Translations under genes and position numbers: made by a program
In this document: piece by piece, positions 30,361-33,416 of the stretch
How the letters are laid out: the number at the start of each line of letters is the position of its first letter
Numbering within the stretch: position 1 is the first letter of the stretch
Notes under the pieces: generated by a model
The model's database searches: none
Seen by the model: only the letters and a program-made list of their open reading frames with translations
What the model was told of the DNA's origin: nothing
From: Gammaproteobacteria bacterium
Lineage (GTDB): Bacteria; Pseudomonadota; Gammaproteobacteria; Enterobacterales; Permianibacteraceae
DNA length: 64,000 bases
NCBI GenBank assembly: GCA_016182845.1
Contig: JACPFT010000008.1
Location: 1 to 64,000, forward strand
Direction of reading: 5' to 3'

Positions 30361-30900
30361 TCAGCTGTGCCGGGAATCCCGATGATGGGTGGAATGGGTC
30401 TTGCTGTCTTGGGCGGCGAAGCCGTGGATGATCGCGGTATCGGGCTTGTAGCTCTTGATGATCGCCGCGTCCTGCGCGTAACCCTTGATGATCGCCGCGT
30501 CCGGGGCATAGCCCCTGATGATCGCGGCATCGGCCGCATAGCCCTTGATAATCGCCGCGTCCGGCGCATAACCCTTGATGATCGCGGCATCGGCCGCATA
30601 GCCCTTGATAATCGCCGCGTCCGGCGCGTAGCCCTTGATGATCGCGGCATCGGCCGCATAACCCTTGATGATCGCCGCGTCCGGGGCATAACCCTTGATG
30701 ATCGCGGCATCGGCCGCGTTCGCCTCGCTCATCAGCCGCTTCAGGCCATCCCAGTCCTGCCCAAGGATTAACTCGCAGTGCGCCGCGTCCAGACCGAATT
30801 GCTCCAGGGTGGCGCGGGGATTTTCCTCATAGGCGCGACGGAATGCCGGGTCCTGGGCCAGGCTCTTCATCAGCGCATTCAACTTGCTGCTATCGCTCAT
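30361..30900 (-). CDS. Split-borosin precursor peptide with ten tandem core repeats
   Basis: 179 residues. Start at 30900 with GGAG six bases upstream. Residues 1-63 form a helical leader resembling the LigA-like borosin-binding domain of split borosin precursors such as SonA: DPAFRRAYEENPRATLEQFG, then GLDAAHCELILGQDWDGLKR. Residues 64-163 are ten 10-residue repeats, DAAIIKGYAP alternating with DAAIIKGYAA; the last three diverge (ending GYAQ, DAAIIKSYKP, DTAIIHGFAA). A His/Ser-rich tail of 16 residues ends the protein. It follows the borosin methyltransferase by 83 bases on the same strand. The repeats are the likely substrate for backbone N-methylation. No protease or exporter gene is adjacent. 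Confidence 0.88.
   Translation of the reverse strand: MSDSSKLNALMKSLAQDPAFRRAYEENPRATLEQFGLDAAHCELILGQDWDGLKRLMSEANAADAAIIKGYAPDAAIIKGYAADAAIIKGYAPDAAIIKGYAADAAIIKGYAPDAAIIKGYAADAAIIRGYAPDAAIIKGYAQDAAIIKSYKPDTAIIHGFAAQDSKTHSTHHRDSRHS
30412..30711 (-). repeat. Ten 30-bp coding repeats arranged as 60-bp dimers
   Basis: The array encodes the ten core units of the precursor. Neighbouring units use different codons (ATCGCCGCGTCC versus ATCGCGGCATCGG on the plus strand), and the pattern recurs every 60 bases at 30481-30720 with few changes. The dimer nearest the C-terminus (30421-30480) has diverged most. Confidence 0.95.
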
Positions 30901-30954
30901 GTCGTTCTCCGTACTGGCGGGGAGGGGATACTCCCCGGCGTGGGTGGTGGGTCG

Positions 30955-30984
30955 AGGACGGCCTGCCGCGCGGGCAGGCCTCCT
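30955..30984 (-). other. Intercistronic hairpin between the borosin methyltransferase and precursor
   Basis: GGCCTGCC and GGCAGGCC pair across GCGCG at 30960-30980, extended by AGGA/TCCT after a one-base bulge, up to the methyltransferase stop codon. No T tract follows. It could block 3' decay or partly terminate, so setting the enzyme:precursor ratio. Confidence 0.6.
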
Positions 30985-31814
30985 TACCCGACGAGTTGCT
31001 CGGGACTCAGACCGAAATCGCGCAGAGCGGCAAGGTCCAATTCCAAGCGTCCCAAGGGCGGGATAAACAGGGTCGAGGCCAGGCCGACGCGGGCGCCGGC
31101 CAGGGCGGAGAGGGGCATCCAGTCGATGCGCGGCGAGGCGACCGGCAGGGTGGCGGCCTCGTAGACGGCGACCGGATGCTCGGCGGGATAGTGGCGGCGC
31201 AGCCGCGCGGTCAATGCCTCCAGGCCACCGGCGGCGGGGCGCAGGCGCTGTAGCGTGTGATCGCCCACCACGCCTATCTGCCAGAGGATCACGGCGGAGG
31301 CGGTATTGAGGGGAATCTTGTAGAACAAGAACGTCGATGCCTCGAACTGGGCGCAGCCGGTGTCGCCGGGATCCACGCCCAGATCGGCATACAGGCAGTC
31401 CTCCGCCGAGATCCCCGGCAGCATGCGCGCCGAATAACCCAGGGCGCGCAGGCGGCGGATGGCCTCGTGGGGCGGGAAGGCGAAGACGCCCGGATGGCCG
31501 TAGAAGATGGCCACCACGTTCTGGCCTTCCTGCACCGCGCCCACCACGGCCTGGACCATGGCCTCGTAGGAATCGGCGCGGGAGCGGCGCAGCTCGTAGT
31601 CGTCGCCCTCCTGGGCGCCGAACTGGTAATAGGGCATCAGGCTCACGACCCGGGGATTCAGCTCCTGGATCCAGGCCTGGCCGGCGACATCCGAGACCAG
31701 GGAATAGACCTTGTCGGCCTGTTCGATATAGGCCTTGGTCTCCAGACTGCAATGGGCAAGGGTGTTGATACCCGTGCCGACGACGGTGAGAGACCCCTGC
31801 TTGTCTGTGCTCAT
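30984..31814 (-). CDS. Borosin peptide alpha-N-methyltransferase (tetrapyrrole methylase fold), stand-alone
   Basis: 276 residues from the ATG at 31814 (GGGAGGA upstream). N-terminal LTVVGTGINTLAHCSLETKA is the SAM-binding methylase start. Three blocks match the fungal OphMA/bacterial borosin enzymes: YYQFG followed by RADSYEAMV (Arg79-x3-Tyr83, plus Tyr62/63, equivalent to the catalytic Tyr/Arg set); FYGHPGVFAFPPHEAI at 104-119; and MLPGISAEDCLYADLGVDPG at 131-150. It should transfer methyl groups from SAM to backbone amides of the separate precursor, repeatedly. Unlike OphMA it has no fused core peptide: the frame stops after GLSPEQLVG. It has its own promoter. Confidence 0.92.
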   Translation of the reverse strand: MSTDKQGSLTVVGTGINTLAHCSLETKAYIEQADKVYSLVSDVAGQAWIQELNPRVVSLMPYYQFGAQEGDDYELRRSRADSYEAMVQAVVGAVQEGQNVVAIFYGHPGVFAFPPHEAIRRLRALGYSARMLPGISAEDCLYADLGVDPGDTGCAQFEASTFLFYKIPLNTASAVILWQIGVVGDHTLQRLRPAAGGLEALTARLRRHYPAEHPVAVYEAATLPVASPRIDWMPLSALAGARVGLASTLFIPPLGRLELDLAALRDFGLSPEQLVG

Positions 31815-31891
31815 GAGCCATTCCTCCCAAGGAACGGGAAAGGGGAATGCGATGGCATCACGAAGCAGGGGTTGGGCCGGATTGCCGAGAC

Positions 31892-31913
31892 GGGGCCGCG
31901 TTGGGGCGGCCCC
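31892..31913 (-). other. Hairpin in the leader of the borosin methyltransferase transcript
   Basis: GGGGCCG and CGGCCCC pair perfectly across eight bases, about 10 to 30 bases after the predicted transcription start. Without a T tract it is not a simple terminator; it may stabilise the RNA. Confidence 0.5.
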
Positions 31914-31922
31914 TGTTCGAGA

Positions 31923-31953
31923 ACTATAGACCCGGATTGGCAATCCGCCAATC
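31923..31953 (-). promoter_or_regulatory. Sigma-70 promoter and overlapping palindrome of the borosin operon
   Basis: On the minus strand TTGGCG, 17 bases, then TATAGT form a good -35/-10 pair. A perfect inverted repeat GATTGGC-N5-GCCAATC (31935-31953) covers the -35 box, the position for a repressor. It lies just after the stop of the AraC-type gene, so the operon is independently transcribed. Confidence 0.7.
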
Positions 31954-32924: not shown

Positions 32925-33017
32925 GGCAGGATCTTAACAGAAGCTGGCATTTGCGCCAGGGCCGGCGACGATGGCCATGCCTATGATGGAGCCATCCCCA
33001 GCCAACGGAGCCCAAAT

Positions 33018-33416
33018 ATGACCAGCCCTGTGAATCGGTTCCCCACCGCCGCCAGCGCCGATGCCGCCGCCCATTTCGCCGCCGCCTTGAGCTTCGAGAC
33101 CGATTGCTGGGACGTCCATGCCAGCTTCGCGAACAGCTGCGTGGACTTCGTCCTGGTGGACGTGCGCGGCCCGGATCTCTTCGCCGCCGGCCATGTGCCC
33201 GGCGCCATCAACATCCCCCACGGCAAGCTCGTCGCCGGCTACCTCAAGGACTACCCGATGGACACGCTGTTCGTGGTCTATTGCGCCGGGCCGCACTGCA
33301 ACGGCGGCCACAAGGGGGCTGTGCGCCTCGCCCAGCTGGGGCGGCCGGTGAAGCTGATGATCGGCGGCGCCACCGGCTGGCTGGACGAGGGCTTTTCCCT
33401 AGTGACTGGGGACTAA
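33018..33416 (+). CDS. Rhodanese-domain protein divergent from the FtrA-type regulator
   Basis: 132 residues from the ATG at 33018 (ACGGAG upstream). FVLVDVRGPDLFAAGHVPGA and the active-site loop YCAGPHCNGGHKGA (Cys persulfide carrier) are present. It is likely a sulfurtransferase. Its stop overlaps the creA stop by four bases on the other strand. Confidence 0.92.
   Translation: MTSPVNRFPTAASADAAAHFAAALSFETDCWDVHASFANSCVDFVLVDVRGPDLFAAGHVPGAINIPHGKLVAGYLKDYPMDTLFVVYCAGPHCNGGHKGAVRLAQLGRPVKLMIGGATGWLDEGFSLVTGD

Follow-up and report, generated by a model that had tools for sequence, protein, structure and literature searches.

In split borosins, the methyltransferase and its precursor are encoded on separate genes (PMC8429565). 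The closest described system is SonM/SonA from Shewanella oneidensis, a type IV split pathway in which, according to PMC8429565, SonM uses Y58, R67 and Y71, with SonM residues 58-67 forming the side clamp, and methylates SonA Leu63 and Ile65 in N-to-C order. The iterative model in that paper has the register shifted by refolding of helix 5, for two nearby sites; as of 2021, it linked no type IV pathway to a final product. The fungal OphMA carries its leader and core fused to the enzyme (PMC8429565). Types 0-X of the borosins are given in PMC11395268, which adds type XI and whose main text is without any "repeat-" word; PMC11285071 names types IV-X, and repeats go unmentioned in the passages of it used here. 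Several imperfect core repeats per precursor are described for the dikaritins and epichloecyclins (PMC9233826), with other enzymes and chemistry and with Kex2-type release in fungi.

Here, we report a gene pair on contig JACPFT010000008.1 of a Gammaproteobacteria bacterium (assembly GCA_016182845.1), in a stretch of 64,000 nucleotides (positions 1 to 64,000, hereafter the window), that is best labelled, from its sequence, a multi-core split borosin, rare among the loci examined. It resembles SonM/SonA in its separate enzyme and precursor, its Tyr/Arg/Tyr set, its predicted five-helix binding domain and its hydrophobic core at equal spacing; it differs in having ten tandem units where SonA has one core, and a side clamp of 15 residues where SonM has 8. 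With OphMA it shares the enzyme fold and the catalytic set, and with the dikaritins and epichloecyclins the several imperfect core repeats on one precursor. A multi-core split borosin is unannounced in the titles and abstract openings that we searched, a scope that leaves aside the type V-X papers (Imani 2022, Cho 2022); the kind is known, and priority for a multi-core split borosin is uncertain.

Organization of the locus

Both genes lie on the reverse strand, methyltransferase (P0002) first and precursor (P0001) second, with the following features.

31923 to 31951, reverse strand: single, weak sigma-70-like promoter match (9 of 12 positions) 5' of the methyltransferase gene
30984 to 31814, reverse strand: methyltransferase gene (P0002), 276 amino acids, GGAGG 8 bases 5' of the ATG
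31626 to 31628, reverse strand: Tyr63 codon (SonM Tyr58), from the alignment of homologues
31581 to 31625, reverse strand: enlarged side-clamp loop, 15 residues, Tyr63 to Arg79, from comparison of 216 homologues
31578 to 31580, reverse strand: Arg79 codon (SonM Arg67), from the alignment of homologues
31566 to 31568, reverse strand: Tyr83 codon (SonM Tyr71), from the alignment of homologues
30901 to 30983: intergenic gap of 83 bases
30960 to 30980, reverse strand: perfect 8-bp hairpin GGCCTGCC-CGCGC-GGCAGGCC between both genes, from the fold z-score
30361 to 30900, reverse strand: precursor gene (P0001), 179 amino acids, GGAG 6 bases 5' of the ATG
30712 to 30900, reverse strand: leader, residues 1-63, predicted five-helix LigA-like borosin binding domain, from profiles and AlphaFold
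30412 to 30711, reverse strand: ten 10-residue core-like units, residues 64-163, from Tandem Repeats Finder and translation
30364 to 30411, reverse strand: C-terminal tail, residues 164-179, with four His, from translation

A first-pass annotation, made from the letters of the window, had described a 276-residue methylase with FYGHPGVFAF, MLPGISAEDCLYADLG and RADSYEAM and, 83 bases beyond it, a 179-residue protein with a His-rich tail. Translation of 30984-31814 and 30361-30900 on the reverse strand reproduced both proteins, and the tail of the latter, QDSKTHSTHHRDSRHS, consists of its final 16 residues, four of them His.

The 101-nt region that holds the hairpin folds with z = -2.78, and 2 of 200 shuffles fold equally well. 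The hairpin is strong but is not listed as a terminator by the scan; it may be an mRNA-processing or attenuating element that sets the precursor:enzyme ratio. One sigma-70-like match was seen against 0.3 expected in shuffles. The G+C content of the gene pair is 62-67%, compared with 67% for the window, and there is no sign of a phage or plasmid origin: none of 50,697 phage records matched, and relatives of the enzyme occur in 13 of 72,556 plasmid records, all below 60% identity.

The family scan of the neighbourhood covered seven stretches between 27.7 and 37.1 kb. They hold an FAD-binding protein, an HD-domain/DUF3391 protein, an AraC-type/DJ-1 regulator, CreA, an HI0933-like flavoprotein and an MFS/acyltransferase fusion; the stretch 32990-33413, for which a poor frame was used, gave no family. 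None of these seven stretches evidently encodes a protease, a dedicated exporter or a further tailoring enzyme, and a route of release is therefore not visible there. At the start of the window, 1-1402 on the reverse strand encodes part of a large protein that runs off the window; its 306-base repeats are about 89% identical and look, by eye, VCBS/cadherin-like, a type found in repeat adhesins.

The methyltransferase belongs with SonM and OphMA

The best solved relative of P0002 is SonM (E = 9.5e-71, residues 7-274), with OphMA (9.9e-52) and MroMA (5.6e-42) as other solved borosin enzymes. SonM Y58, R67 and Y71 correspond to Y63, R79 and Y83, and these positions are kept in 215, 214 and 215, respectively, of 216 distinct homologues, P0002 included. 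The AlphaFold model of P0002, built with a 12-row alignment, has a pLDDT of 81 and a pTM of 0.60, and a structural search with it returns SonM first (E 3.7e-33); at an rmsd of 6-7 Å and a TM-score of about 0.6, this is a fair but imprecise fold match. By sequence and predicted fold, then, P0002 is confirmed as a borosin-type methyltransferase of the SonM/OphMA group, in agreement with the first-pass claim of a borosin N-methyltransferase.

The loop between Tyr63 and Arg79, at 15 residues, is the longest of the 216 homologues, among which 163 have 5 residues, 41 have 8 and five have 11. We considered a large side clamp as a general mark of multi-core loci and dropped this rule, because the enzymes next to the other arrays described below (L074, L202 and L084) carry the usual 5-residue loop.

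The leader and the register of the first repeat

Pfam LigA matches P0001 at residues 7-53 with 26.6 bits, barely over its cut-off of 25.3, and the SonA PDB entries likewise bear the LigA name. A binding-domain profile grown from 163 ORFs adjoining other methyltransferases, with P0001 left out, finds P0001 at E 2.8e-13. It gives the leader by itself 48.2 bits, compared with 7.0 bits for the best of 1000 leader shuffles. AlphaFold predicts helices at residues 3-16, 18-26, 28-35, 39-46 and 50-60 (block pLDDT 75-95), and this model of the leader fits the closest SonA chains to within 0.7-0.9 Å across 47-54 columns; several other SonA chains give 1.7 to 11.5 Å, mostly where the alignment extends into the core. 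By sequence alone the match of P0001 to SonA chains is weak (phmmer, best E 0.022). Foldseek with the P0001 model returned nothing at E 0.001, SonA being best at 0.069 with a probability of 1.00; the E-values are weak because the array makes up two thirds of the query. Pfam, the independent profile and the predicted structure thus agree on a LigA-like identity for the helical leader that had been read from the letters, and support its assignment as a SonA-like five-helix borosin binding domain. Enzyme and precursor are encoded separately, which fits the split-borosin definition.

In the ungapped phmmer alignment (E 0.022), AAII of repeat 1 lies over SonA residues 62-65, which read ALVI in the aligned chain; by its title this chain is the Y62A variant, so the wild-type residue 62 is Tyr. 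The distance from the conserved Asp to the first hydrophobic tetrad is 16 residues in P0001 and 15-16 in L059 and L008 (four sequences); in L003, the nearest single-core relative, the tetrad starts at 13-14, unlike in P0001. The MAFFT alignment moves the core by one residue relative to the phmmer alignment. Taken together, the alignments and spacing support repeat 1 as occupying the SonA core position. The first-pass annotation had taken Ile-Ile-Lys-Gly-Tyr as the modified part; by position relative to SonA, AAII is the better guess.

A conserved repeat peptide

Ten 10-residue repeats had been read from the sequence as identical cores. The ten units are there, in register over residues 64-163, but they are near-identical, with two of them degenerate. 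Units 1-6 and 8 share DAAIIKGYA and end in P, A or Q; unit 7, DAAIIRGYAP, replaces Lys with Arg; the degenerate ones are unit 9 (DAAIIKSYKP) and unit 10 (DTAIIHGFAA). At the protein level the array has a tandem score of 65, and none of 1000 residue shuffles scored above 7. Tandem Repeats Finder reports periods of 30, 60 and 90 bases in the array, with scores of 332, 419 and 411, and the first two codons alternate across units 1-8 (GAT GCC, GAC GCG). The higher score of the 60-base over the 30-base period, together with the alternating codons, suggests that the array grew in two-unit duplications.

Over all pairs of units 1-8, 84 codon differences are synonymous and 26 non-synonymous. With a pS of 0.478 and a pN of 0.048 in these units, the repeat peptide is conserved while its codons differ, although the ratio is indicative only, since the inherited two-unit codon alternation inflates pS. 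Over all ten units, pS is 0.485 and pN 0.106.

P0001 lacks the usual single short core, and a single core lies outside the published definition of a split borosin; it resembles a multi-core RiPP precursor in that a single leader is followed by near-identical core units in tandem. It has 120 residues beyond the binding-domain profile match, where the median over 164 such matches is 4. L115 alone exceeds it in that length (127), and the start of the L115 ORF was read too early.

Distribution and origin of the array

P0002 has matches at E 0.001 in 31 of 99 relatives, its own genome included and no other genome of its genus among the 99; four of the 31 match only at 3.5e-4 to 9.7e-4. At 1e-20, the order-level draw has matches in 94 of its 394 genomes, the class-level draw in 10 of 369 and the phylum-level draw in 15 of 398; these draws overlap, and each includes the own genome. 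Loci for comparison came from 80 named loci (the best 80 of 488 matches from an alignment query of genome contigs), from the genome searches, and from regions fetched for most other order-level places (by our count, all but two). A single-protein query of the same genome contigs gave no match. In total, 247 methyltransferase ORFs were collected, 216 of them distinct, and two further ones added later bring these to 218.

Only four of the 218 methyltransferase genes, that of the window included, have a same-strand neighbour, within approximately 0.7 to 1.5 kb, whose tandem units number at least four and measure at least 10 residues each: ten units in the window, seven in L202 (genome G731), five in L074 (Colwellia psychrerythraea GAB14E) and four in L084 (Tahibacter aquaticus). 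Please note that the tandem filter with longest starts misses the window's own array; a stop-to-stop rerun spanning all 277 loci, with 218 distinct frames, left the four arrays unchanged and added frame-shifted readings of arrays. Low-complexity frames at L056, L091 and L221 in this rerun stand outside the array count. Neither are L206, L221 and L225 counted, which passed the filter only via short-period acidic or Glu/Pro tails, nor L066, L091, L196 and L218, which passed it through small upstream frames. The first-pass statement that known split precursors have a short single core thus fits the vast majority of these loci; the exceptions include three loci besides the window whose arrays run to four or more units. 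Among all loci examined, none has a longer array than the ten units that follow the full SonA-type leader of P0001.

The tandem proteins beside the other borosin-type methyltransferases lie at 6880-7320 in L074, 2028-2462 (reverse strand) in L202 and 7352-7777 in L084. L202, from the same order, and L074 resemble the window in that a borosin-type methyltransferase is followed by a protein with hydrophobic units, SHKALIITPK in 13-residue units in L202 and THKAFFVAND in 22-residue units in L074, compared with 10-residue units in the window. Their leaders, in contrast, are short, with binding-domain profile E-values of 0.11 and 0.0055 (neither below 0.001), and their enzymes sit on another branch of the tree than P0002. 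The L084 array is acidic (DKDEEEIRFAAVSGG), in 15-residue units, and may be a follower, not a core.

Of 215 enzymes placed on a quick tree, that of L003 (genome G002), from the same family, is closest to P0002 (SH-aLRT 97; 52-55% identical). L003 has a related leader and a core that starts with Asp and contains Gly-Tyr; it differs in having one core, ending DTVCITHINGYKK, and only the methyltransferase, of nine window proteins compared, matches its surrounding 15 kb. Since this nearest enzyme has a single-core precursor, the window array is probably an amplified core, and the amplification probably came after the split from the single-core relative, although repeats may instead have been lost in L003. 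L074 and L202 are sisters on the quick tree (support 91, under the starred level). A single origin of tandem arrays is unsupported, as the quick tree needs at least 4 label changes for five loci, L240 included; shuffled labels need 5.0 changes on average, and 15 of 500 shuffles as few as 4. Core amplification appears, on this tree, to have recurred.

The L240 precursor has two units. The Kangiella-type loci L047, L159, L162 and L163 have two imperfect copies (SKLLLLEP.NGQ / DHKLLLLTP) that the filter did not flag; such two-copy precursors are possibly a step between a single core and arrays. In Rheinheimera and relatives (L048, L049, L051, L055, L057, L060, L088 and others), the ORF directly 3' of many of the methyltransferases resembles, by eye, a GNAT-type acetyltransferase and not a short precursor.

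No second genome with a ten-unit array was found among the 369 genomes of the class. The P0001 query at E 0.01 matched 12 of these, including its own, the other 11 with best E-values of 2.6e-8 to 0.008. Seven of the 11 matched loci encode proteins of visibly repetitive sequence, and, judged collectively, none of the 11 was counted as a homologue of the array. In one of them, G384 (L036), the match is confined to the leader (residues 5-64) and lies approximately 3 kb from a borosin-type methyltransferase of that genome, so that this is probably an ordinary precursor.

The genome of the window holds a second borosin-type methyltransferase at G000:C10:329444-330169 (L002, L277), 45% identical to P0002. 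It is followed by a single-core precursor with an Asn-rich end (SNTSNTNVNISRVQKA), and this pair sits, by eye, shortly beyond a ruvC/ruvA-like pair.

Proposed mechanism and alternatives

We consider it likely, by analogy with SonM/SonA, that the locus is a split borosin pair with an amplified core and that several of the repeats are methylated. The five-helix leader would dock onto the methyltransferase dimer as SonA does onto SonM, with two precursors per dimer if the pair is type IV-like, and the enzyme would move methyl groups from SAM to backbone nitrogens inside AAII of the repeats. Repeat 1, being at the SonA distance from the leader, would come first and later repeats afterwards. Positional equivalence to SonA Leu63 and Ile65 points to Ala66 and Ile68 of repeat 1 as the likely sites, recurring each ten residues, a prediction good to approximately one residue because the alignments and the tetrad spacing differ slightly. 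Docking of the leader and methylation of repeat 1 would follow closely on the SonM/SonA analogy. Reaching repeats 2-10, which are another 10 to 90 residues away, would take more than helix-5 refolding, most simply a looping back of the flexible array, or else rebinding. The SonM model offers no support for a reach of 90 residues further, which counts against the multi-site reading. The units may then be excised, or the array may stay whole. In its most far-reaching form, one docking would lead to methylation of most of the ten repeats, up to approximately 100 residues from the leader, the long side clamp would help to feed distant repeats, and the long, regularly N-methylated protein would work whole and not as short peptides set free from it; we regard this form as rather improbable.

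Several other explanations have to be weighed against an amplified core with several methylated repeats. Methylation could be confined to repeat 1, or to the first one or two, with the remainder an extension that has its own role or is a neutral expansion. Repeat 1 alone holds the SonA spacing, and the published SonM register shift via helix 5 is short in range (PMC8429565); the near-constant peptide of units 1-8 (pN 0.05 against a pS of 0.48 that the codon alternation inflates) is unlike a neutral expansion, and drift is confined to units 9-10, and we take this explanation to be doubtful. To be taken somewhat seriously, if still unlikely, is that the array is a structural repeat, a beta-solenoid or amyloid-like, in which N-methylation, if any, controls assembly and does not lead to a small product. 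AlphaFold draws one strand per unit over residues 67-162, and Foldseek gives weak matches to bactofilin and to fibrils of CsgA/FapC, with E-values of 0.65-1.5 and probabilities no higher than 0.21. These matches are not significant, however, the block pLDDT of the array is about 61-74, and solenoid models often arise from perfect repeats; we do not trust the strand-per-unit model as a structure. Such an array could coexist with methylation, and because the readings overlap in this way, our estimates for them are not meant to sum to certainty.

The degenerate end units 9 and 10, and a 60-base super-period that points to growth by duplication, would also be expected of a functionless array that is decaying or has expanded recently. 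Both frames are open, however, with GGAG(G) motifs resembling ribosome sites, the catalytic residues are intact and units 1-8 differ mainly synonymously, so that we judge a functionless locus very improbable. That the enzyme is a cobalamin-type tetrapyrrole methylase beside an unrelated repeat protein we have rejected as having next to no probability. It has in its favour the Pfam fold name TP_methylase, which P0002 matches at 1.3e-21, but this fold spans cobalamin-type and borosin groups. P0002 scores no more than 21 bits with any of the NCBIfam precorrin models listed, whose cut-offs are 163-391, with no equivalog cut-off for a precorrin/cobalamin methyltransferase reached, solved borosin enzymes match it at 9.5e-71 (SonM) to 5.6e-42 (MroMA), and its neighbour carries the cognate docking domain. 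The first-pass annotation had named membership of the cobalamin branch, without the Tyr/Arg set, as the outcome that would overturn it; P0002 lies outside that branch, with Tyr/Arg/Tyr intact.

The precursor is a natural substrate that offers almost the same unit at ten distances, in fixed 10-residue steps, so that distance is separated from sequence. It is in this respect a natural test of how such enzymes gain access to multiple sites from a single docking point, and methylation per repeat would tell a distance-limited from a processive or a distributive enzyme. If the array were fully methylated, it would be a scaffold for bulk backbone-methylated peptides, with a hint of a repeat-protein product.
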